A DNA stretch of 64,000 nt, from positions 310,001 to 374,000 of the forward strand of contig NZ_JAPELL010000002.1 in the NCBI RefSeq assembly GCF_026094475.1, read 5' to 3'. The DNA comes from Homoserinimonas sedimenticola (GTDB taxonomy: Bacteria > Actinomycetota > Actinomycetes > Actinomycetales > Microbacteriaceae). Positions 50,398 to 64,000 of this stretch are shown here, piece after piece (the stretch's first letter is position 1; every line of letters starts with the position of its first letter). A program made the position numbers and the translations under genes. The notes beneath the pieces are model-generated. The model saw nothing but the letters and a program-made list of their open reading frames with translations. It made no database searches and was not told the origin of the DNA.

Positions 50398-50967
50398 GTG
50401 GAGCAGGACACTGAGGAGACGGTTATCCGGCCGCCGCGTCGCGCTGCCGTCGACTCCCATGTCGACTCCGCCGATACGATCCTCCTGACGCGAATGCGTA
50501 CGGGGGCGACGTCCCCAAGTCGTCCGTCGTCACCCGCCGTGAGCGAGCCACCTGCCGTCGCCGTTGCGCCGGCACCAGCCCCGCTCCACTATCGTTTCGC
50601 CGTCAACAGTCACACTCCCATTGACCTTGATCGTCCCGCCCACATCGGCCGCCGACCGAGCCTGCCGCGCGTGCCGCAACGGGTCCGGCCCCGCCTCGTG
50701 CGGGTGCCGTCGCCGCTTCAGGAGGTCTCCGCCACGCACCTCGAGGTGCGACAGGAGGGGGCATCCGTCGTCGTCACCGACCTGCGCTCGACCAACGGCA
50801 CGATCGTTGCCGTCCCCGGGTCGAGGCCGCGCGCCCTACGGCCGGGGGAATCGCTCGTCGTGACGCCCGGGACTGTCATCGATATCGGCGACGGCAACCG
50901 TGTCGAGATCCTTCCGCTGCGGCGGGGGGCGGGGGAGAGTACCCCCAGTGAAGGAGCAGCTCTGTGA
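50398..50967 (+). CDS. FHA-domain protein
   Basis: A 189-residue cytoplasmic protein with a disordered first half and a C-terminal forkhead-associated domain (about 78-178) that reads phosphothreonine. FHA hallmarks: HIGRRPS, the S/H pair in VSATHLEV, and DLRSTNGTIV. The N-terminus has TEETVIR and DTILL, Thr-rich spots that could be kinase targets as in GarA-type proteins. It overlaps the phosphatase gene (GTGA). Confidence 0.9.
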   Translation: MEQDTEETVIRPPRRAAVDSHVDSADTILLTRMRTGATSPSRPSSPAVSEPPAVAVAPAPAPLHYRFAVNSHTPIDLDRPAHIGRRPSLPRVPQRVRPRLVRVPSPLQEVSATHLEVRQEGASVVVTDLRSTNGTIVAVPGSRPRALRPGESLVVTPGTVIDIGDGNRVEILPLRRGAGESTPSEGAAL

Positions 50968-51854
50968 CCGAGATCGGCCGAAACACCTCGCACCATCGTC
51001 TCGAGCTGCCCGACGGCGGTGAGGTCGAGCTGGCCTGGGGGGTCGCGACCCACACGGGGCACCGCCGGCGTCACAACGAGGACAGCTTCGTCGCATCTCC
51101 GCCCCTCTTCGCGGTTGCCGACGGTATGGGCGGCCACTCGGCAGGCGATCTTGCGAGCGCCGCCGTCGTGCGGCGACTTGCGGAGGCTACAGCGGACATC
51201 GTCGGCGCGCCGAGCGAGATTGGCGCCGCCCTCCACCTCGCAACGCAGGACATCGCCGAGGTGAGCGACGAGGCGAGCCTCGGGGTGGGCACGACCGTGA
51301 CGGGCGCGATGTTGACGATCGAGGAGGGGGAGGCCTCGTGGCTCGTCTTCAACGTCGGGGACTCGCGCGTGTACGTCGTTGACGCGGGGGTGCTCGCGCA
51401 GGTAACCGTCGACCACTCCGTCGTGCAGGAGATGGTGGATGCCGGCATGATCTCGGCGAGCGAAGCCGAGGCGCATCCCGACAGCAACATCATCACGAGA
51501 GCCGTCGGGTTCAATGCCGACCCGGTTCCCGACTTCTGGCATATTCCACTGCGCACCGGGATGCGCCTCCTGCTCTGCTCGGACGGTCTCACGAAAGAGG
51601 TCGACCTGGAGACGATCGAGGGTGTACTCACGGCGGGTTCCGCCGCTGCCGTCGTCGTGGACGAGCTCGTGGAGCGAGCCCTTCAAGCAGGCGGCCGAGA
51701 CAACGTGACCGCGGTTGTTGTCGACGTGCTTTCGGCGCCGGGAGGCGACGGGGAGGCGACCGGGCCGCGCGGGGACGACGACGCCGCCGACGAGGAGGAC
51801 ACGCTTCCGCCGACGGGGGAGCTTCCCGCCCCGGGGAGCGACCGCGAGGAGTAA
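50964..51854 (+). CDS. PP2C-family Ser/Thr protein phosphatase
   Basis: A 296-residue PPM phosphatase that removes phosphate from Ser/Thr. Metal-site motifs in order: RRHNEDSF, VADGMGGHSAGD, NVGDSRVYV, LLCSDGL and GRDNVTAVVVD. It has no membrane helix, unlike PstP of Mycobacterium, and ends in an acidic, Pro-rich tail of about 45 residues. The start GTG 50964 overlaps the FHA gene. It should counteract the kinase encoded next. Confidence 0.95.
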   Translation: MTEIGRNTSHHRLELPDGGEVELAWGVATHTGHRRRHNEDSFVASPPLFAVADGMGGHSAGDLASAAVVRRLAEATADIVGAPSEIGAALHLATQDIAEVSDEASLGVGTTVTGAMLTIEEGEASWLVFNVGDSRVYVVDAGVLAQVTVDHSVVQEMVDAGMISASEAEAHPDSNIITRAVGFNADPVPDFWHIPLRTGMRLLLCSDGLTKEVDLETIEGVLTAGSAAAVVVDELVERALQAGGRDNVTAVVVDVLSAPGGDGEATGPRGDDDAADEEDTLPPTGELPAPGSDREE

Positions 51855-52030: not shown

Positions 52031-53443
52031 ATGGCGCGACGCCTGCCGTCTCAACCCCCTGTCTTGCCGGGCTTCAGCCACGTGCACATCCTCGGCTCGG
52101 GGGGCTTCGCCGACGTCTTCCTCTACGAGCAGAACATGCCCAGACGCCAGGTGGCGGTCAAGGTGCTGCTCAGCGAGGTCGTCAACGACCACGTGCGCCA
52201 GATGTTCCAGGCCGAGGCGAATCTCATGGCACAGCTGAGCTCGCATCCGTCGATCCTCACCGTGTACCAGGCGAGCGTCTCATCCGACGGGCGGCCCTAC
52301 CTCGTCATGGAGATGTGTTCCTCAGCGCTGAGCGAGCGCTACCGGCGAGAGCCGCTGCCGGTCGCCGAGGTGTTGCGCATCGCCGTCAAGATCGGCAGCG
52401 CCGTAGAGACGGCCCACCGGGCGGGCGTTCTCCATCGTGACATCAAGCCCTCCAACATCCTGCTCACGGCCTATGGGCACCCCGTGCTCTCCGACTTCGG
52501 CATCGCGGCCACACTCGTGACTGCCGACGCCGAGGAGGCGGTCGGCATGTCGATACCGTGGTCGGCGCCCGAGGTGCTCCTGGGCGAGAACTCGGGTTCC
52601 GTCGCCGCCGAGGTGTGGTCTTTCGCCGCGACCGTATATTCGCTCCTGGCGGGGCGATCGCCCTTCGAGGTGCCCGGCAAGTCCAACAAGAGCGCTGACC
52701 TCATCGCGCGCATTGGACGGGGCCGCCCGCAGCCGATCGACAGGGCCGATGTCCCTCACTCGCTCGAGACGGCGCTCGCGCGCGCAATGTCGCGCAACCC
52801 CGAGCATCGCCCCCGCACGATCCTCGAGCTCGTGCACGAGCTGCAGGCGATCGAGTCGGAGCTGGGCCTCGCACAGACGCCCATCGAGGTGGCGATGGAT
52901 GACTGGGCGCTCGGCACCGTCTCCGACCTGGAGGATCGCACGCGAGTGCGGGCACTCAACTCCGATGCCTCGACCTCTACGGGGCGTCCGCGACGTCGGC
53001 GTCGGCGGCGAGCGGCCACTGCCCCCGAGAGCGTTGTGCTTGAGAACGCTCAGCCGAGCCGCAGTGGCTCGATCACGCAGCCCGCATCCCGCAGTGCGAC
53101 GGCTCTCACCTGGACCCTCGTCGTGACGGCCGTGCTCGTGCTGGCCCTCGCGGCGACGGCTGTCTATGTTCTCCTGCGCAACAACTCCTCGATCCCGGTC
53201 GTCACCGACATTGAGGCGCGCGAGCGTGCCGGCGACGTCGTCTTCACATGGCCGGACCCCGGCCTGCGCGAGGGTGACTCCTATCAGATAGAGACCTCCG
53301 ACGGTGCGAGGAGCATGCAGACGAACCCCGCGTTTGTCGTGGCGGGCGACGTCGGCGAGGAGGTGTGTATCACCGTGACCGTGAACCGTTCGGGTACGAC
53401 GGGTTCGCCGAGCAACCAGAAGTGCGCGACCGTCGGCCAATGA
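52031..53443 (+). CDS. Transmembrane Ser/Thr protein kinase with an Fn3-like ectodomain
   Basis: A 470-residue Hanks-type kinase. Motifs: glycine loop GSGGFADVF (22-30), ATP lysine K44, catalytic HRDIKPSN (Asp137), DFG 155-157 and SAPE near 178. A disordered basic linker (TGRPRRRRRRRAA) leads to one membrane helix (about 358-382) and an 88-residue outer domain with the strand pattern of fibronectin type III (VVFTWPDPG, SYQIET, CITVTVNRSG) and two Cys. PASTA repeats are absent. It is followed by the giant surface protein gene. Confidence 0.94.
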   Translation: MARRLPSQPPVLPGFSHVHILGSGGFADVFLYEQNMPRRQVAVKVLLSEVVNDHVRQMFQAEANLMAQLSSHPSILTVYQASVSSDGRPYLVMEMCSSALSERYRREPLPVAEVLRIAVKIGSAVETAHRAGVLHRDIKPSNILLTAYGHPVLSDFGIAATLVTADAEEAVGMSIPWSAPEVLLGENSGSVAAEVWSFAATVYSLLAGRSPFEVPGKSNKSADLIARIGRGRPQPIDRADVPHSLETALARAMSRNPEHRPRTILELVHELQAIESELGLAQTPIEVAMDDWALGTVSDLEDRTRVRALNSDASTSTGRPRRRRRRRAATAPESVVLENAQPSRSGSITQPASRSATALTWTLVVTAVLVLALAATAVYVLLRNNSSIPVVTDIEARERAGDVVFTWPDPGLREGDSYQIETSDGARSMQTNPAFVVAGDVGEEVCITVTVNRSGTTGSPSNQKCATVGQ

Positions 53444-53480: not shown

Positions 53481-56400
53481 ATGCTGAGGGCCTGGGTCTC
53501 ACGACACGTCTCGGCTGTCATCACGACGACGAGCATCCTTCTCATCGCACTGCTCGTCGCGATCGTGGCGTTCGTCTCCCAGGGCTACACGGCGCAGCGC
53601 CTTGACCTTGGCGACGGCTCCGTCTGGGTCGCCAACGGGCAGCAACAGGTGATCGGGCGTGCGAACACTGAGATCAACCTTCTGAACACGGTCGTGGAGA
53701 GCTCGGGAAGCGAACTCGAGGTGGTCCAGGAGGGCGGCACGGTGCTCCTCGTGGACCGCGCCAACACGCGCCTCGACATCGTCGACCCCGCGACATCCGA
53801 GGTCGTCGACAGCGTCGCGCTGCCGACTGAGGCGCCTCGGGTCGTGCTCTCCGGCAATTCGGCGATCGTGCGAGCGGAGGAGACGGGCGAGGTATGGATC
53901 GTTCCCCGCTCTGAGCTCGGCTCCTTCGATGCGGCGACCGAGCCTATCCTCAGCCTCGGCTCGAACGCTGCGGTCACGGTCGCCCCGGACGGAACCCTGC
54001 ACGCCTTCTCTCCTGACACCTCCCAGCTCTACCGCGTGGACCTGAGTCGAGGCGCCGGGGCCGTGACGTCCGCCGCGGAGAGCCGCGTCATCGACTTTTC
54101 GGGAGAGGGGCAGGATGTCGCGATCACGGCTGTGGGGGAGCGCGCCGTCATCTTTGACTACTCCTCGCGCAGCCTCTGGCTCGACGGAACCGTCGTCGAT
54201 CTTTCAGACGAGCTGAGCCCGGGGGAGCGGCCGCTGCTGCAGCATCCGGGTGACGCGGCCGACTCCGTGCTTCTGGCGTGGGAGGGCGGTCTCTTCGAGA
54301 TCGGTTTCGGCGGCGAGGTGAGCGTCCTCGTTGAGGAGCGTTCCGCCACGGCCGCCGCCCCCATCGTCGTCGACGGATGCGCATTCGCGGCCTGGGCCGA
54401 CGGTCTCGCGTGGCGTGACTGCGAGGGCGCTGCGCCCGTCGAGCTGGAGCTGGCGGGTTCGGATGCCGCGGCCGCCCGTCTGGACTTCGCCCTCAACGAG
54501 GACCGGCTCCTGCTCAACGACCCCAGCTCCGGACGCTCCTGGGCGGTCCAGGGTGACGGCGCGCTCATCAACAACTGGAGCGAGCTCATCACGGTCGAGG
54601 AGAACCAGGAGCAGGTCGAACAGAACGATACGGACACCCCGCCCGAGTTCGAGAAGACCCAGGTCCCTCCCGTCGCGGTCGACGACGTCTTCGGTGCCCG
54701 GCCGGGGCGCGCGACCGTCCTGCCCGTGCTCCTCAACGACTACGACGCCAACGGCGACGTCCTCGTCGTCTCGGAGGTCGGCGAGATCGACGAGACGCAG
54801 GGCCGACTCGATCTTGTGCGCGACCGGCAACAGGTGCAGATCACCCTGAGCGACACGGCGTCGGGCGTCATCACCTTCCCCTACACGATCACTGACGGTC
54901 GCGGCGGTTCGGCCTCGGCGACCGTCACGGTCGAGGTGCGCTCCCCTCAGGAGAATGGGGCCCCCGTGCAGGTGCGGCAGTCGCGCAGCAGCGTCGCACA
55001 GGGCGGGCGCCTCACCGCGAACGTCCTCGGTGACTGGGTCGATCCGGACGGGGACCCCTTCTACCTCGTCGGTGCCTCGACCGCCGACCCGGACGTGGTC
55101 AGCTTCAAGCCAGAGGGGGCCGTCGTCTTCCAGGAGGGCGGGGCAGCAGCAAGCCTCCGAACGGTTGCGCTCGCGGTGACGGATGGGGTCGCCCGGGGTT
55201 CGGGCTCACTCGCCATCACGGTCAGCGCGCCGGGCGAGGTGCCGATCATCGCCGACCCCTTTGCCGTGCGGGCCTACGCGGGCGGCGAGGTGCGGGTCGC
55301 GCCCCTCGAGCATGTGCGCGGCGGAACAGGCACCGTGCGCCTGAGCGCCGTGCCCTCGCGCACGGGGGCCACCATCACGACCAACCTGGACAGCGGCACA
55401 TTCCGCTTCTCGAGCGAGCAGGTGCGCACCTTCTACGTCGAGTACGTCGTGACTGACGGCAGCCAGACGGTGACGGGCATCGTGCGCATCGACGTGGAAG
55501 CGCCGCCCGACGCAAACTCTCCTCCCATCACGATCCCCAAGACCATCTTCATCAAGACGCTCAGCGATGAGACGATCGACGTCGCCTCGATCGACATCGA
55601 TCCTGCGGGCGGCGTGCTCATGGTGACATCCGTCTCGACCGAGCAGGCCATGGGCGTGCGAGCGGAGATCCTCGAGCAGAGGTCGATCCGGCTGACCCTG
55701 GAGGCGCCGCTCGACAGCGGGCCGGTGACCGTGTCGTACCGCATCACGAATGGGCTCGCGTCGGCCGACGGCGCCATCACGGTCATCGAGATCCCGCCCG
55801 CGCAGCTGCAGGCGCCCGTCGCAAGCCCCGACAGCGTCACCGTGCGCGTCGGCGACACGATCGACATTCCCGTGCTCGCCAACGACCTGCATCCCGACGG
55901 CGAGGCACTGACGCTCAACCCGCAGCTCGTGGAAGGGGCCGAGGGTTCCGGCCTCCTCTTCGCCTCAGGCGATCGCCTGCGCTACCTCGCCCCCGAGCAG
56001 ACGGGTGACTTCACGGCGGTCTACGAGATCGCGGGGCCCGACGGGCAGACCTCTCAGGCCGAGGTGCGCATTGCTGTGCGGGAGGTCGTCGAAGCCACCA
56101 ACGGTGCCCCGACGCCTACGACCGTGACGGCGCGCGTCATCGCGGGAGGCACCGTGAGCATCCGTATCCCCCTCACGGGAATTGACCCGGACGGCGACTC
56201 GGTGCAGCTTCTCGGGCAGGAGAGCGCGCCCGAGAAGGGGGCCGTGACGGAGGTCGGCACGGACTTCATCGAGTATGAGGCGGGCCAGTACTCGGCGGGA
56301 ACCGACACCTTCACCTACACCGTCATGGACAGCCTCGGTGCTCGCGCGACGGGAACGGTGCGCATCGGCATCAGCCCGCCCCTTCAGGAGGCACGCAACC

Positions 56401-59321
56401 CCGTCGCTACGGCGGATGAGGTGACGACGAAGCCCGGCGGCACCATCTCGGTGCAGGTGCTCGCCAACGACATCGACCCGGACGGCGGCACGCTCAGCGT
56501 CATTGACGTCGAGCCGAACACGAGCGATGTCGAGGCGGAGATCGAGGGCGAGGTCGTGGTCGTCGTCGTGCCGGAGGAGCCGGGCCAGTACGGCCTCATC
56601 TACACGATCGAGAACGACTTCGGCGGAACCAGCTCCAACTTCATCACGGTGACGGTCGACGCGGAGGCGCCCTACGCACATCCGCTTGCGAACGACACCG
56701 TCCTCACCCTCTCGGACATCCTCGACCGGGAGACGGTGACGGTCGACGTGCTGCAGAACGTCTTCTTCGCCGACGGGCCCGTCGACACCCTGACGGTCGA
56801 GCTCCTCGACCGTTTCAGCGACAACGCCCAGGTGGACGCTGACGGCACCGTGACCGTCACGATCGTGGAGCGGCGGCAGATCATCCCCTTCGCTGTCATC
56901 CACCCCGCCGACCCCGATGTGGTCTCCTACGCGTTCATCCGCGTGCCGGGGCTCGACGACGCCCTACCGCAGCTCGATCGCCGCGCCGCGCCTCTCGTCG
57001 TCGCGAGCGAGTCGCGTCTCGTGATCGACATCAACGACCACGTCATCGCCGTCGGCGGCCAGAAGGTTCGCCTCACCGACCGCACGACGGTGCGTGCCAC
57101 GAACGCCAATGGCGACCCGCTCGTGATCGACGACGACACGCTTGTCTTCACTTCGGCCGACAAATATTTTGGCCCGGCATCCATCTCCTTCGAGGTGACA
57201 GACGGCGTGACAGCGGATGCACCGGGCGCCCGCACCGCAACCCTCGTGCTCCCCATCCGTGTCACCCCGCGGGAGAACCAGCCCCCCGTGTTCGCGGGCG
57301 GAACGATCGAGTTCGAGCCGGCCGAGGAGAAGCCGCTCGACCTTCTCAAGCTGACGAACTATCCCTATCCCGACGACGTCGAGGAGCTCACCTACCGCGT
57401 GCTGGAACCCCTCCCGCGCGACTTCAGTTACACGCTGACGGGGAGCACGCTCACGCTGCGGGCCGCCGCAAACGCCATCAAGGGTTCCGAAACTGCGATC
57501 ACGCTGGGGGTCCGCGACGACGTGAGCGACGGGCAGGCGGGCACGATCACTCTGCGGGTCGTCGCCTCGAGTAGGCCCCTCGCCCGGCCTGCACCCGACA
57601 CGGCGATCACCCCGAGGGGCGAGACGACGACGATCGACGTGCTCGCGAACGACAACGCTGCGAACCCGTTCCCCGGCCAGCCGCTCACGGTAGTCGGCAT
57701 CCGGGGCATCGACGGGGGCGCCCTGCCACCGGGGGTGACGGTCGTGCCGAGCGCCGACCGTAGCAGGCTCACCGTCAGCGTCGCCTCCAACGCTCAGGCC
57801 GCAGACACCCAGTTGCAGTACCAGGTGGCGGATGCGACGCGGGATCCGAGCAGATACACCTGGGGAACCGTGACCATTTCCGTGCAGGACGTGCCTGATG
57901 CTCCCGTCGCGCCCTCCCGGGTCGGCGGACACAGCAACGGCGCGGTGACCCTGCGCATCACTCCGCCCGCCGCCAACAACTCGCCCATCACCTCCTACGA
58001 GATCGTGAGCAGCAGCAATGGCGGCTACCGCAAGAACTGCGGCCTCGAGCAGCTGTGCACCCTCGACGATCTCGCGGTGGGGGCATCCTACGAATTTCAG
58101 GTCATCGCGACGAATGCTCTCGGTTCCTCAGCGCCAAGCCCCTCGAGCGTGCCGCTTCGGGTCGACTACCTTCCGGCGGCGCCGACAGGCGTGACCGCGA
58201 GGGCGACGGGCGGGGCCGAGGGTGAGCTCACGGTGACATGGTCTGCGGTTCCTGACCCCGTGCCGGGCACCCCGGTGACCGGGTACACAGTGCGGATCGC
58301 CGGCCCCGGTGTCGGTCAGGCCGACATCGCGACGACCGCTACGAGCCTCACGACGACGGCGGGCGGTCTCATCCAACCAGGCCAGGTGTATCAGGTCGTC
58401 GTTTTCGCGCGGAACTCGGCGCAGGCGACCGCTGAGGAGTGGAACCGTTCGGCCCCCGTCTCGGTCACCGCCGTCGGCCGGCCGCTCCCCGTCGCCGTGA
58501 GCGCCGCCGTGACAGGCAATGAGGGCGACATCCGCGTCACGTGGACGGGGGGAGGCTGGAACGGCGCAGGCACGGGAAGCTACCACGTCGCCCGCTTCCG
58601 CGGCGAGACCCCGCCCTCCACCTGCACGAGCGGCAACTACCCCAACAGAGTCGCCGGCCCGGTGGCGAGCGGCTGGGTCGACACGAGCGCACAGGACGGG
58701 GTTGCCTACGTCTATGCCGTGTACTCCGACAACGGCATGTTCTGCACTGTGAGCGTCTCGAGTCCCGTCGAAAGCATGCGGGCGCCGGGCCAGGCGAGCG
58801 CGAGCCTGCGAGTCGAACACCAGGGCGGCGGCTACTACGACGTGCGCGTGACCTCGCTCTCTGTCTCGCAGGGCACGGCCGCGCGCTACGAGGTATCCCT
58901 GGGCGGCAGCGGCACATGGAGTCCCGTCGTCCGAGGGCAGTTCGTGACCTCAGCCACGAGCTCCACACGCTATGGCGAGCCCGTCACGGTGCAGGTAAGG
59001 GCCTGCCGCAACGCCGGCACGGACCTCTGCGGACCGCCATCCGAAGTGCTCCAGGCGACCCCCATCGCGACGCGAGCGAGCGTGCTGAGCTGCGCCGAGG
59101 GTGAGGAGTTCACCCCTATCGCACCGCCGAACACGGGCGCCGTCGGCAGTGTGACCTACGAGGTGCTGTTCCGTGCCGCCACGGGGAACTGGCCGCCGGA
59201 TGTGTTCTGGCAGCAGTGGAGTCCCGGCATGACGGTACCCGCCGGATCCACGGCCCTCCGCATCAAGGCGACTGTCGACAGCTACGAGGACCCAGAATAT
59301 GGGGAGACCCAGTGCGAATGA
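53481..59321 (+). CDS. Giant surface protein: propeller-like head, cadherin/Ig-like repeats, Fn3 repeats
   Basis: A 1946-residue, N-terminally anchored protein (membrane helix about 12-33) with its bulk outside. Residues 36-355 show repeated four-strand patterns like a beta-propeller. From about 395 to 1470 come roughly 11 tandem cadherin/Ig-like modules, several with Ca-type loops (VLANDIDPDGGTL, VLLNDYDANGDVL, LTGIDPDGDSV). Fn3-like modules follow (about 1475-1870). No sortase LPxTG is present. GAGGGA before the ATG is the ribosome site. The number of Ca-like loops suggests an extended rod stiffened by calcium. An adhesion or envelope scaffold role is inference. Confidence 0.9.
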   Translation: MLRAWVSRHVSAVITTTSILLIALLVAIVAFVSQGYTAQRLDLGDGSVWVANGQQQVIGRANTEINLLNTVVESSGSELEVVQEGGTVLLVDRANTRLDIVDPATSEVVDSVALPTEAPRVVLSGNSAIVRAEETGEVWIVPRSELGSFDAATEPILSLGSNAAVTVAPDGTLHAFSPDTSQLYRVDLSRGAGAVTSAAESRVIDFSGEGQDVAITAVGERAVIFDYSSRSLWLDGTVVDLSDELSPGERPLLQHPGDAADSVLLAWEGGLFEIGFGGEVSVLVEERSATAAAPIVVDGCAFAAWADGLAWRDCEGAAPVELELAGSDAAAARLDFALNEDRLLLNDPSSGRSWAVQGDGALINNWSELITVEENQEQVEQNDTDTPPEFEKTQVPPVAVDDVFGARPGRATVLPVLLNDYDANGDVLVVSEVGEIDETQGRLDLVRDRQQVQITLSDTASGVITFPYTITDGRGGSASATVTVEVRSPQENGAPVQVRQSRSSVAQGGRLTANVLGDWVDPDGDPFYLVGASTADPDVVSFKPEGAVVFQEGGAAASLRTVALAVTDGVARGSGSLAITVSAPGEVPIIADPFAVRAYAGGEVRVAPLEHVRGGTGTVRLSAVPSRTGATITTNLDSGTFRFSSEQVRTFYVEYVVTDGSQTVTGIVRIDVEAPPDANSPPITIPKTIFIKTLSDETIDVASIDIDPAGGVLMVTSVSTEQAMGVRAEILEQRSIRLTLEAPLDSGPVTVSYRITNGLASADGAITVIEIPPAQLQAPVASPDSVTVRVGDTIDIPVLANDLHPDGEALTLNPQLVEGAEGSGLLFASGDRLRYLAPEQTGDFTAVYEIAGPDGQTSQAEVRIAVREVVEATNGAPTPTTVTARVIAGGTVSIRIPLTGIDPDGDSVQLLGQESAPEKGAVTEVGTDFIEYEAGQYSAGTDTFTYTVMDSLGARATGTVRIGISPPLQEARNPVATADEVTTKPGGTISVQVLANDIDPDGGTLSVIDVEPNTSDVEAEIEGEVVVVVVPEEPGQYGLIYTIENDFGGTSSNFITVTVDAEAPYAHPLANDTVLTLSDILDRETVTVDVLQNVFFADGPVDTLTVELLDRFSDNAQVDADGTVTVTIVERRQIIPFAVIHPADPDVVSYAFIRVPGLDDALPQLDRRAAPLVVASESRLVIDINDHVIAVGGQKVRLTDRTTVRATNANGDPLVIDDDTLVFTSADKYFGPASISFEVTDGVTADAPGARTATLVLPIRVTPRENQPPVFAGGTIEFEPAEEKPLDLLKLTNYPYPDDVEELTYRVLEPLPRDFSYTLTGSTLTLRAAANAIKGSETAITLGVRDDVSDGQAGTITLRVVASSRPLARPAPDTAITPRGETTTIDVLANDNAANPFPGQPLTVVGIRGIDGGALPPGVTVVPSADRSRLTVSVASNAQAADTQLQYQVADATRDPSRYTWGTVTISVQDVPDAPVAPSRVGGHSNGAVTLRITPPAANNSPITSYEIVSSSNGGYRKNCGLEQLCTLDDLAVGASYEFQVIATNALGSSAPSPSSVPLRVDYLPAAPTGVTARATGGAEGELTVTWSAVPDPVPGTPVTGYTVRIAGPGVGQADIATTATSLTTTAGGLIQPGQVYQVVVFARNSAQATAEEWNRSAPVSVTAVGRPLPVAVSAAVTGNEGDIRVTWTGGGWNGAGTGSYHVARFRGETPPSTCTSGNYPNRVAGPVASGWVDTSAQDGVAYVYAVYSDNGMFCTVSVSSPVESMRAPGQASASLRVEHQGGGYYDVRVTSLSVSQGTAARYEVSLGGSGTWSPVVRGQFVTSATSSTRYGEPVTVQVRACRNAGTDLCGPPSEVLQATPIATRASVLSCAEGEEFTPIAPPNTGAVGSVTYEVLFRAATGNWPPDVFWQQWSPGMTVPAGSTALRIKATVDSYEDPEYGETQCE

Positions 59322-59331
59322 GGATGCAGCG

Positions 59332-60330
59332 ATGGACGGCACGACGAGAGGCGACAGCATGACAATGGCACCGGAACAAGCGGCATGGTTCTCCGACATC
59401 TTCGGTCGCCTCGTCGCCAACGTCGAGCAGGTGCTGCTGGGGAAGACCTTCGTCATCAAGCTCTCCTTCACAGCGCTTCTGAGCGAAGGGCACCTCCTGC
59501 TCGAGGACTACCCGGGCACGGGCAAGACCTCCCTCGCGCGCGCGATCGCGCAGAGCGTGCAGGGGACGAGCAATCGCGTGCAGTTCACCCCCGACCTCCT
59601 CCCGGGAGACATCACGGGCGTGAGCATCTACGACCAGCGCTCCGGCGACTTCGAGTTCCACCGCGGCCCCATATTCGCCAACATCGTGCTTGCCGACGAG
59701 ATCAACCGCGCGAGCCCCAAGACCCAGGCGGCGCTCCTCGAGGTCATGGAGGAGGGCCGGGTGACGGTCGACGGTGTCACGCATCCCGTCGGTGCCCCCT
59801 TCATGGTCATCGCGACCCAGAACCCTGTCGAGCAGGCTGGCACCTATCGTCTACCCGAGGCACAGCTTGACCGCTTCCTCATGAAGACGTCGATCGGCTA
59901 CCCCGACCACGCGTCGACCGTCCGCATCCTCGAGGGTGCGGGGGTGCGCGCCCACGACACGGTCGTGCCCTCCATCGTCCCCGCCGAGACCGTCGTCGAG
60001 ATGGCGGCTCTCGCGCGCACCGTGCATGTCGACCCCTCGGTCAACGACTACGTCTCCAGGATCGTCGAGGCGACGCGCTCCTCCGAGGAGGTGCGATTGG
60101 GGGCGAGCGTGCGCGGCGCCCTCGCCCTCATCCGTGCTGCCAAGACGCTCGCGGCGGCAGGGGCGCGCCACTACGTGATTCCCGACGACATCAAGGCGCT
60201 CGCCGAGCCCGTCCTCGCCCACCGTCTCGTGCTCGACCCCGAAGCCGAGTTCGACGGCGTGACCGCCTCGAGCATCATGAGTCAGATCCTCATGGAGGTC
60301 TCGCCACCCAGCGACAGGCAGGCGGTGTGA
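59332..60330 (+). CDS. MoxR-family AAA+ ATPase
   Basis: A 332-residue MoxR ATPase. Walker A is DYPGTGKTSLARA, Walker B is LADEINRASPKTQAALLEVMEE. MoxR proteins often act as chaperones on a partner with a VWA or DUF58 domain. The ATG at 59332 has GAGGA upstream; an earlier ATG at 59299 overlaps the giant gene by 23 bases and cannot be excluded. It overlaps the DUF58 gene (GTGA). Confidence 0.93.
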   Translation: MDGTTRGDSMTMAPEQAAWFSDIFGRLVANVEQVLLGKTFVIKLSFTALLSEGHLLLEDYPGTGKTSLARAIAQSVQGTSNRVQFTPDLLPGDITGVSIYDQRSGDFEFHRGPIFANIVLADEINRASPKTQAALLEVMEEGRVTVDGVTHPVGAPFMVIATQNPVEQAGTYRLPEAQLDRFLMKTSIGYPDHASTVRILEGAGVRAHDTVVPSIVPAETVVEMAALARTVHVDPSVNDYVSRIVEATRSSEEVRLGASVRGALALIRAAKTLAAAGARHYVIPDDIKALAEPVLAHRLVLDPEAEFDGVTASSIMSQILMEVSPPSDRQAV

Positions 60331-61802
60331 GCCGGGATCGTCTCGCGCGCGGCGAGCGCACTCCGTCCGCAACGACACCGGGGACTGCGCGCGTCTCCTC
60401 GAGGACGGCCCTCACAGGCACGGGGCGGAGCCGTTCGCGCGGCGCGACCCGGACCTCGTATCGCGGGGATCCGGGCACCACGACGAGCACCGTCAGCAAC
60501 ACCCGCAGCCGCATCGTCGGCAACCGTGACGGCATTCTCGCTGACCTGATCGTCACCGTCGTCCGCTCCGCCCGAGCCCTTGCCGGCGGATTGGCGACCG
60601 TCTCCGCTCGCGTCGGCTCCGTCGTCACCCCGCTCGGCTGGAGTATGGTCGGCGTCGTCGTCCTCTCCTTCTTCTTCGCCCATCTCGTCGGATGGCCCGA
60701 GCTCCTGGCTGCCGCGTACAGCTCGCTCGTGCTCGTGCTCGTCGCCATCATCTATCTCGTCGGGCGAAACGCCTTCACGATCGATCTCTCCCTGCCGCAC
60801 AGCCGTGTCGTCGTGGGGGAGACGGCGAGCGCCCGCATCACGATCGACAACCCCAGCCGCCACAGAGTCTTCGGTGTCAAGGCCGAGGTCCCGGTGGGCA
60901 CGGGCATCGCCGAGTTCGCTCTGCCGGGATTGACGGGAGGCAGCTCCTTCTCGCACGAGTTCGCCGTGCCGACCTCGCGCCGCGGGATGCTTCCCATCGG
61001 TCCCGTGCGCACGGTGCGTGCCGACCCCATCGGCCTCGTTCGCCGCGAGATCGCCTGGACCGACGTGCACGAGCTCTACGTGCATCCGCGCACGACCGCG
61101 ATCCCCAGCACGAGCACGGGCCTCATTCGCGACCTGGAGGGAAACCCGACGAGGGACATCACGAGCAGCGATGTCTCCTTCCACGCGCTACGCGAGTATG
61201 CGCCGGGAGACGAGCGCCGCTACATCCACTGGAAGAGCACCGCCAAGACGGGCACCTATATGGTTCGACAGTTCGAGGAGACCCGGCGTAGTCACCTCGT
61301 GATCTCGCTGAGTCTCGCGGCGTCGGACTACGCGAGTGACGAGGAGTTCGAGATGGCGGTCAGCGTAGCGGGGTCGCTCGGCATCCGCGCCATCCGCGAC
61401 GTGCGCAACATCTCGGTCGTCGTCGGTGCCTCCACCCCCGAGTTCGCCCGTCACCGCGTCTTCGCCGTGCGCGCGCTCAGCACGCTCAATCCGGGGCGCC
61501 TGCTCGACGACCTGGCTCTCGTGGAGCGGGATGCCGCATCCCTTCCTCTCGGCGACATGGCCAGGGTCGTGGCGGACCAGGTGGCCGGCGTGTCTGTTGC
61601 CTTCCTCATCTGCGGCTCGACGCCGTCGCCCGGAGAGCTGCGGGCCGCCTCGACCCGCTTTCCGTCCGGCGTCGAGGTCGTCGCAATCGTGTGTGATCCG
61701 GAGACCGTGCCCGGACTCCGCCGCGTGCCGGGGCTCAGCGTCCTGACGATCGGCTACCTCGAGGACCTCACGCGGAGCCTCGCCCGCTCGGCGGCGGCCT
61801 GA
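60327..61802 (+). CDS. DUF58-domain membrane protein
   Basis: A 491-residue protein. About 75 Arg/Ser/Thr-rich residues precede two membrane helices (about 110-150). The rest holds an Ig-like part and a DUF58 (VWA-like) domain with the signature REYAPGDERRYIHWKSTAK near residue 290. DUF58 proteins are the usual partners of MoxR. The start is GTG 60327, overlapping the moxR stop. Confidence 0.92.
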   Translation: MSRDRLARGERTPSATTPGTARVSSRTALTGTGRSRSRGATRTSYRGDPGTTTSTVSNTRSRIVGNRDGILADLIVTVVRSARALAGGLATVSARVGSVVTPLGWSMVGVVVLSFFFAHLVGWPELLAAAYSSLVLVLVAIIYLVGRNAFTIDLSLPHSRVVVGETASARITIDNPSRHRVFGVKAEVPVGTGIAEFALPGLTGGSSFSHEFAVPTSRRGMLPIGPVRTVRADPIGLVRREIAWTDVHELYVHPRTTAIPSTSTGLIRDLEGNPTRDITSSDVSFHALREYAPGDERRYIHWKSTAKTGTYMVRQFEETRRSHLVISLSLAASDYASDEEFEMAVSVAGSLGIRAIRDVRNISVVVGASTPEFARHRVFAVRALSTLNPGRLLDDLALVERDAASLPLGDMARVVADQVAGVSVAFLICGSTPSPGELRAASTRFPSGVEVVAIVCDPETVPGLRRVPGLSVLTIGYLEDLTRSLARSAAA

Positions 61803-61809
61803 GGCGCAC

Positions 61810-64000
61810 ATGAGAACGTTCGACCAGGGCTCTGGAGTCTTCACCCTCCTCTCGACGACCTTCTTCGTCGCGGCGACCGCCGTCGCGACGACGGCGTTCT
61901 GGCCGATCTATCAGACCGAACAGTTCATCCTCATGGCTGCCGCGACGATCGTCGTGGGCTGCGCCATCGCCATCGCGGGAGCGCGGTTCCGCTGGCCCGG
62001 GCCCGTCATGGTGGGGGTCACTGTCGCGACCTACCTCCTCCTCGGCGTGCCGCTCGCCATCCCGGACAGCGCGCTCTTCAGGGTCCTGCCCTCGGGTGAG
62101 GGCCTGCTGGAGCTGATCCGTGCGGCGGCGCTCGGCTGGCGGCAACTCCTCACGATCGCGCTGCCCGTGGGCAGCTACCAGTCGCTCCTCGTTCCCGCGT
62201 TCCTCATCATTCTCGTCACGGTCATCATCGGGCTGTCTCTTGCGCTGCGGATCGAGACGGGAGAGCTTGGCGTCCTCGCCCCGACACTCGTGCTCGTGCT
62301 CGGGCTCGCCTTCGGGCCCAGGGAGGCACCCACCGCCGTGCCTCTCGTGCTCGGCTTCCTTGCGGTCGTGCTCGGCTGGCTCAGCTGGCGTCGCTGGTAT
62401 CGACGCCGGGAGAGCATCCGTGCCCTTGCGACGTCGCCTATGCCCGGCAGCGCTCGTCTTGAACGGCTGGGCGGGGTTCGCAGTGCCGCGGCCGCGATCG
62501 CCATCCTCCTCGTCGCTGTCGCGGTCGGGGGTCTGTCCGCGAACGCGGCGCCGCCCGAGCGCGAACGCGAAGTGCTGCGCGACATCGTCGACCAGCCCTT
62601 CGACCCCCGGGACTACTCGAGCCCGCTCAGCAGCTTCCGTCGCTACCAGCAGCCCTCCATCGCAGGCTCGGCCATGTTCACCGTCAGGGGACTTCCGGCG
62701 GGGGCTCGGCTCCGCCTGGCCACCCTTGACACCTACGACGGCGTCGTCTTCAGCGTCGGAAGCGACCTCGCGACGAGCGACTCCGGATCATTCACGAGGC
62801 TTCCCACCTCGATCGAGCGCGACCTTGCGGGCGAACGCGTCGAGCTCGAGGTGGAGATCTCCGGCTATGAGGGCATCTGGGTTCCCACGACAGGCCTGCT
62901 GAGCTCGATCTCCTTCTGGGGAACGGATGCAGCGGCTCTCACGGACAGCTTCTTCTTCAACGATGGGGGGCACTCGGGGGTGGTGCTCGAGGGGCTCGAC
63001 GCGGGCGATCGCTACACTCTCGACGCGGTCATCCCCGCCGAGCCGAGCAGCGGCAGGATCGGCAGCCTGAGCCCCGGCGACGCCGCCGTGCCCCCTGCCG
63101 CGGTCGTTCCCGAGGAGCTGACGGTCGTGCTCGACACGTGGGTGCGGGGCGCCGAGACCGCCGGTGAGCGGCTCGAGGCGATGCTTTCGGCCCTCGCGGC
63201 TGAGGGGTACGTGAGCCACGGCATTCGAGACGACGAGCCGGTGAGCCGCTCGGGCCACGGAGCCGACCGAATCCAGGAGCTCCTCACGAGCCCCCGCATG
63301 ATCGGCGACGAGGAGCAGTACTCCGTCACGGCCGCGCTCATGGCGCGCGCAATCGGCTTTCCCTCGCGAGTCGTCTTCGGCTTCGCGCCCGAGCCCTTAG
63401 GCGGCGAGGACGACACGACCGTCGTCCTCGGCTCCGATGTCTCGGCATGGATCGAGGTGGATACGGCTCAGTTCGGCTGGGTCGCGATCGACCCGACGCC
63501 GCCCGAGCGGGAGATTCCCGAGGAGGAGCCCGAGGATCCGACCGAGGTCGCTCGCCCCCAGAGCCCTGTACCGCCGCCCGCAGTTGAGCCAGACCCGAGC
63601 CGCGACCAGATTCCGCTCGATACAAGCCAGGAGGACGAGGAGCAGGACGACCCCTTCGTGGCGGCCCTGCTCGCAGCCCTCACGGTACTCGCCTGGATTG
63701 CCGCGGGCATCCTCGTCGTGCTTGCTCCCTTCCTCGCGATCGTCATCGCGAAGCTTCGCCGTCGCTATCTGCGGCAGCGCGCCGCATCTGCCGCGGCCCG
63801 GGTCAGCGGAGGCTGGCGGGAGTTCGAGGACATGACCGCGGACTACGGCTACAGCCCGCCGCCGTCACCGACGCGCAGCGAGGTCGCCGAGGCCGTGGGC
63901 GGGGTCCGCCCTCTCGTGCTTGCCGCAGTTGCTGACCGTGCCGTCTTCGCCCCCGAGCGGGTGGATGAGGATGAAGCGCGAGAGGTGTGGGTCGCGGTGC
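61810..64000 (+). CDS. Transglutaminase-fold (TgpA-like) membrane protein, partial, catalytic residues lost
   Basis: Starting at ATG 61810 (GAGG five bases before), 730 codons are open to the right edge. Several N-terminal membrane helices (about residues 8-165, 215-235) are followed by an outer region with a transglutaminase core near 490-565 and another membrane helix near 616-645. Aligned with TgpA-type cores (GTCEYYASA and DAHAWVEV), the Cys position is Glu501 (GDEEQYSVTA) and the His position is Ser545 (DVSAWIEV); only Asp561 of DPT remains. The enzyme activity is therefore unlikely. It completes the MoxR-DUF58-transglutaminase trio. Confidence 0.9.
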   Translation, partial: MRTFDQGSGVFTLLSTTFFVAATAVATTAFWPIYQTEQFILMAAATIVVGCAIAIAGARFRWPGPVMVGVTVATYLLLGVPLAIPDSALFRVLPSGEGLLELIRAAALGWRQLLTIALPVGSYQSLLVPAFLIILVTVIIGLSLALRIETGELGVLAPTLVLVLGLAFGPREAPTAVPLVLGFLAVVLGWLSWRRWYRRRESIRALATSPMPGSARLERLGGVRSAAAAIAILLVAVAVGGLSANAAPPEREREVLRDIVDQPFDPRDYSSPLSSFRRYQQPSIAGSAMFTVRGLPAGARLRLATLDTYDGVVFSVGSDLATSDSGSFTRLPTSIERDLAGERVELEVEISGYEGIWVPTTGLLSSISFWGTDAAALTDSFFFNDGGHSGVVLEGLDAGDRYTLDAVIPAEPSSGRIGSLSPGDAAVPPAAVVPEELTVVLDTWVRGAETAGERLEAMLSALAAEGYVSHGIRDDEPVSRSGHGADRIQELLTSPRMIGDEEQYSVTAALMARAIGFPSRVVFGFAPEPLGGEDDTTVVLGSDVSAWIEVDTAQFGWVAIDPTPPEREIPEEEPEDPTEVARPQSPVPPPAVEPDPSRDQIPLDTSQEDEEQDDPFVAALLAALTVLAWIAAGILVVLAPFLAIVIAKLRRRYLRQRAASAAARVSGGWREFEDMTADYGYSPPPSPTRSEVAEAVGGVRPLVLAAVADRAVFAPERVDEDEAREVWVAV

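Follow-up and report, generated by a model that had tools for sequence, protein, structure and literature searches.

A transglutaminase-fold membrane protein without catalytic Cys and His in an Ig/FN3 rod operon of Homoserinimonas sedimenticola

The window analyzed here, a stretch of 64,000 nucleotides from Homoserinimonas sedimenticola, ends in a row of genes that overlap or lie close together on the + strand and were assigned from the open reading frame list and Pfam. In order, they encode an FHA-domain protein (50398..50967), a PP2C phosphatase (50964..51854), a Ser/Thr protein kinase (52031..53443), a 1946-aa Ig/FN3 rod protein with an N-terminal membrane helix (53481..59321), a MoxR AAA+ ATPase whose start codon is maybe slightly downstream (59299..60330), a DUF58 protein (60327..61802), and Tgm (61810..64000), a TgpA-fold membrane protein without the catalytic Cys and His, for which a structural model and Foldseek were also used. 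The Tgm gene overruns the window end by 129 bases, and its full length in the genome is 772 aa (L003:811-3129). On its 3′ side are genes for a zinc-ribbon/FHA protein and then for a 999-aa FtsK/SpoIIIE-type ATPase. MoxR ATPases work with vWA partners as co-chaperones, and DUF58 is a vWA-associated domain (PMC12067865). Promoter and terminator scans of the region gave no signal above shuffled sequences. A phage-defence system was considered and rejected, since PADLOC gave no match for Tgm, DUF58, or the rod.

Hydropathy and an AlphaFold model of Tgm (mean pLDDT 85.7) agree on the predicted membrane layout: N-terminal membrane helices (residues 8–246; 61831..62547), an acidic outside domain (about 251–612), a C-terminal membrane helix (residues 615–656; 63652..63777), and a cytoplasmic helical tail (63814..63999), whose DUF4129 match is weak and does not reach the Pfam cut-off. 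This is the layout of TgpA-type proteins. Within the outside domain, Pfam detects Transglut_core at residues 461–562 (63190..63495; E 3.4e-12), while TgpA_N is not detected by Pfam in the window Tgm but is in the Bifidobacterium orthologue. Structural comparison with TgpA had been proposed in an earlier note made from the window sequence, and Foldseek against the PDB indeed ranks TgpA of Pseudomonas aeruginosa (PA2873; 6g4h/6g49) first, with E about 2e-11 and a TM-score of 0.66 over the target; beyond TgpA, just one weak relative was returned, and 6g49 is the sole structure matched by the Tgm family profile. For TgpA, which has a Cys/His/Asp triad, transglutaminase activity has been measured (PMC3507681). 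Tgm thus shares the fold, the membrane layout, and Transglut_core with TgpA, but lacks the Cys and His and is accompanied by rod and signaling genes.

The catalytic positions of Tgm can be read directly from the codons. Residue 501 is Glu (GAG, 63310–63312), in a G-D-E501-E-Q motif (63304..63318) that replaces the catalytic G-x-C; residue 545, at the His position, is Ser (TCG, 63442..63444); and residue 561, at the acid position, is Asp (GAC, 63490..63492). In a phmmer alignment with 6g49, E501 pairs with the Cys of ‘GFC’, S545 with the His of ‘DAHAW’, and D561 with the catalytic Asp. In the model, residue 501 is at the N-end of helix 501–515, the place of the Cys in this fold, and residue 545 lies within strand 544–552. 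The statements of the earlier note that Glu501 and Ser545 occupy the Cys and His places and that the fold motifs are retained therefore hold. Its statement that Asp561 stays is correct for the window protein, but not for the family, since this position is D in 34 of 60 rod-clade rows, Y in 12, and other residues in the remainder.

The Cys-His-Asp/Glu triad of TgpA-type enzymes is accordingly absent from Tgm. None of the first 31 aligned Tgm sequences has Cys at 501, and among 112 aligned members this position is A in 43, Q in 31, G in 15, D in 12, E in 10, and a gap in one. Position 545 is S in 54 members, T in 32, Q in 11, H in 10, and other residues in the remainder. Several other explanations were rejected. 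Sequencing error or chance substitution does not fit with the recurrence of the same state in more than 100 relatives. An alternative Cys/His pair, which by the earlier note would have spoken against a pseudo-enzyme, is ruled out because the single Cys of the protein, residue 51, sits inside a membrane helix. Ser at the Cys place (GDSEQ in Bifidobacterium, GYSEQ in others) is not a general nucleophile, as relatives have A, V, or P instead, and the His is frequently missing. Finally, a new pair of Ser479 and His483 was discarded because Ser479 is not conserved across the wider rod clade.

Comparison with catalytically intact relatives separates two kinds of loci. A scan with the GDxEQYA pattern gave 80 loci and is biased against intact triads; genome searches for Tgm relatives are free of this bias, and surveying the same genomes with Pfam yielded 28 TgpA-like proteins with C/H/E. 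About 20 kb around 80 further loci was examined, and the neighbors were typed with profiles built here and seeded from the H. sedimenticola genome; contig ends shorten some of the typed loci. A long Ig/FN3 rod beside MoxR, DUF58, and Tgm was found in 115 loci, none with Cys at 501, and all 17 Cys-bearing relatives typed for context are in rod-less MoxR-DUF58-TgpA loci. These 17 include an intact third copy in the H. sedimenticola genome itself, which is also one of the 28 proteins with C/H/E (Transglut_core at C9:802167-802538; L057, L194; gene at L194:8556-10955, minus strand). In the unbiased genome-search loci alone, the rod/Cys split is 48 to 0 against 0 to 17. The reading as a pseudo-enzyme is thus strongly supported, as none of the 115 rod-linked loci holds the intact triad that, by the earlier note, would have refuted it. 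A third set of 16 rows also lacks the Cys (S in eight, A in five, P in two, V in one); near MoxR, these loci encode a surface protein that is short and of FN3 or PKD type, or none that could be found. Since this set has neither the Cys nor the long rod, the long rod was not required for catalysis to be lost.

In a quick tree of 93 rows, with long branches and with columns 501, 545, and 561 left out, the Cys group forms one side of a branch with SH-aLRT 99, so that a single change accounts for the Cys. Within this group, C and H are present in 17/17 and the acid is E in 13 and D in four. The tree has no inferred root; the Cys is read as lost rather than gained because the superfamily has it. 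Altogether, these sequence comparisons strongly support the view that Tgm of the rod loci represents a branch of the TgpA family that has lost catalysis.

Some loci show further variations. In a large-genome actinobacterium (L189), two MoxR-DUF58-dead-Tgm sets lie in tandem with kinase genes; at the Cys place one Tgm has S and the other A, and the His is kept. In a rod-less dead-Tgm locus, a WD40 beta-propeller protein (L306:3619-6525) is encoded directly upstream of MoxR and a PKD/beta-helix protein downstream. DUF58 varies as well: in the protein of the window (60327–61802; ‘HLVISLSLAASDY’) a MIDAS-like Asp is replaced by S, as in 73 of 127 rod clusters, the window included, while the Asp is kept in 34 of these clusters, in 15/16 Cys-TgpA clusters, and in 15/15 third-set clusters. 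The MIDAS-like site of DUF58 is a second eroded motif in the rod operon, and the MoxR-DUF58 pair may work differently here.

Despite the loss of catalysis, the domain is constrained. Over 60 rod-clade rows, G482, H483, G499, E502, Q503, R520, and G524 are invariant and R487 is kept in 59, while positions 501, 545, and 561 drift. E502-Q503 is also present in some live, Cys-bearing relatives, whereas the H483...R487 motif (63256..63270) is not fixed there and H483 is rare; H483 and R487 are therefore the more clade-specific marks. When the window Tgm is compared with those of four congeners, dN of the transglutaminase domain is 0.09–0.21 and dS 0.64–1.34, and its dN/dS of 0.11–0.21 is the lowest of the four parts of Tgm in all four comparisons. 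The dead domain is thus the part of Tgm under the strongest selection, and decay of an unused gene was rejected on the dN/dS values.

Furthermore, many modules adjoin genes of type VII-like secretion. The 999-aa ATPase of the window cluster matches TIGR03928 (EssC/EccC) at E 1.5e-70, against 8e-15 for FtsK, both below the curated cut-offs, and its best solved relatives are EccC and YukB; it has no FHA domain, which is on a separate protein. A second module in the same genome (L004, C9:832000-850000) consists of a rod, MoxR, DUF58, a dead Tgm, an FHA-EccC, and a WXG100 protein. Its Tgm is 39% identical to that of the window, with GDEEQ and T at the His place; its FHA-EccC (1499 aa) matches TIGR03928 at E 1.1e-159; and its WXG100 matches TIGR03930 at E 2e-5 and Pfam at 0.001, both below cut-offs. 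A second WXG-like ORF in this module (L004, 4163–4405) has no Pfam match. A clear WXG100 gene (L145, C9:2136233-2136487; Pfam E 1.8e-17) lies far from both modules and is possibly that of an orphan export substrate. FtsK/SpoIIIE matches in the genome are the two module ATPases, a strong separate one at C1:456920, taken as the housekeeping FtsK, and a marginal one; both EccC-type ATPases thus adjoin a Tgm module. Among loci with full flanks, an EccC/EssC-type ATPase is present in 60/105 rod loci against 0/15 Cys loci (Fisher p 2e-5, uncorrected for relatedness), and in one locus (L180) a WXG100 above cut-off lies near the Tgm module. Neither EccC nor WXG100 was found within about 20 kb of the Bifidobacterium operon. 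As the ATPase accompanies about half of the rod loci and is missing near this operon, the type VII link is real but not obligatory.

Probably, Tgm catalyzes no reaction but serves as a docking or assembly subunit of a rod apparatus that is under kinase control and often coupled to type VII-like export. Tgm of the rod clade is strictly linked to MoxR, DUF58, and the giant Ig/FN3 rod, usually together with kinase, phosphatase, and FHA genes, and such a role is suggested by the outside domain, dead yet constrained, and by the cytoplasmic tail beside MoxR and DUF58. A putative former substrate cleft, lined near H483, R487, E502, and Q503, would grip a polypeptide. This would most likely belong to the rod, which is the best candidate partner, being the outside protein found with Tgm throughout the rod clade. 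The suggestion of the earlier note that the domain perhaps binds the rod protein has its support in this constant linkage. The complex may be assembled or remodeled by DUF58 and MoxR at the cytoplasmic tail and would be controlled by Thr phosphorylation that the FHA proteins recognize; in many lineages the module would be coupled to type VII-like export. Dead transglutaminase folds that serve as scaffolds are known from EPB42, menin, and Rad4 (reviewed in PMC10318531). Like Tgm they kept the fold and lost catalysis, but they are mostly eukaryotic and soluble or cytosolic, and share neither operon nor membrane layout with it.

A closer tie to secretion is possible, though we hold it as doubtful: Tgm may be an integral subunit of a type VII-like system, replacing EccB/EccD/EccE, with the rod crossing the envelope, a role proposed for TsdI in T7SSd. 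Together with MoxR and DUF58, the dead transglutaminase and the rod would then be the membrane core of an undescribed Actinomycetota variant, and the PFNA operon of Bifidobacterium an unlinked or reduced form. The position of both EccC-type ATPases in the genome, the flank counts, and the occurrence of WXG100 next to EccC and Tgm in some loci fit with this, as does the composition of T7SSd, which has a kinase, an FHA-EccC, a long Ig protein, and WXG100 (Garrett, Higginson and Palmer, 2024, PMC11217815). All four are shared with the L004 module, and the kinase and long Ig protein also with the window cluster. On the other hand, the five published core parts of T7SSd include no MoxR, DUF58, or transglutaminase-fold protein (PMC11217815), all three of which are present in the modules of H. 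sedimenticola; about half of the rod loci, and Bifidobacterium, have no EccC nearby; and no WXG100 was found beside the window cluster. A literature search found no paper joining type VII secretion with transglutaminase and DUF58, or WXG100 with MoxR and transglutaminase.

Cell-wall binding, the other possibility raised in the earlier note, is unlikely; here the Tgm domain would anchor the apparatus by attaching to peptidoglycan or a different wall polymer. Its predicted outside location and the cell-wall roles suggested for TgpA (PMC3507681) would suit an anchor, but no wall-binding domain was found in Tgm, and the alignment gives no pointer to a glycan or stem-peptide site.

One of the genera surveyed (g52, family f4) we take to be Bifidobacterium on the basis of a genus-type 16S primer, which matches exactly in 4/5 of its genomes tested, in 1/4 of g35 in the same family, and in 0/6 from other families. 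Tgm of this genus has GDSEQYAS with T at the His place, while that of g35 has S at the Cys place and Q or E at the His place. In Bifidobacterium the PFNA operon, pkb2-fn3-aaa-atp-duf58-tgm, has been called unique to bifidobacteria, and its Tgm has been presented as an enzyme, either a transglutaminase or a cysteine protease (PMC8430577, PMC6803598). The PFNA Tgm belongs to the same family as that of the window, with the same gene order (kinase, FN3/Ig protein, MoxR, DUF58, Tgm), and falls inside the rod clade on the tree. However, the sequences here lack the Cys and His, and it is common to find the PFNA gene order in genera other than Bifidobacterium, so that both published claims are contradicted.

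These papers also connect the operon with host signals, and by analogy Tgm could be a receptor that signals to the kinase when a ligand, external or from the envelope, binds to its outside domain. The membrane layout, the presence of kinase, phosphatase, and FHA genes in the operon, and positive selection reported in the membrane helices of Bifidobacterium tgm (PMC6803598) would agree with this. Nevertheless, we consider it quite improbable: a sensor would predict variable cleft residues, while those around the putative cleft are invariant, and many bacteria with the rod-Tgm module are free-living, from soil, ice, and water, which excludes host immune ligands as the basic signal and makes host-immune sensing unlikely as the basic role of this widespread actinobacterial operon. 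Very improbable, finally, is that the dead site became a new active or metal site made from H483, E502, and their neighbors; their invariance in the rod clade and the rarity of H483 in Cys-bearing relatives would allow it, but residues 236–581 of the rod clade include no invariant Cys, Ser, or Thr, which makes a replacement nucleophile unlikely, and E502-Q503 is already found in active relatives.

The family ties the MoxR-DUF58-TgpA system to type VII-like secretion genes. The live TgpA and the dead Tgm in one genome form a natural pair for asking what role MoxR-DUF58-TgpA systems have beyond catalysis.
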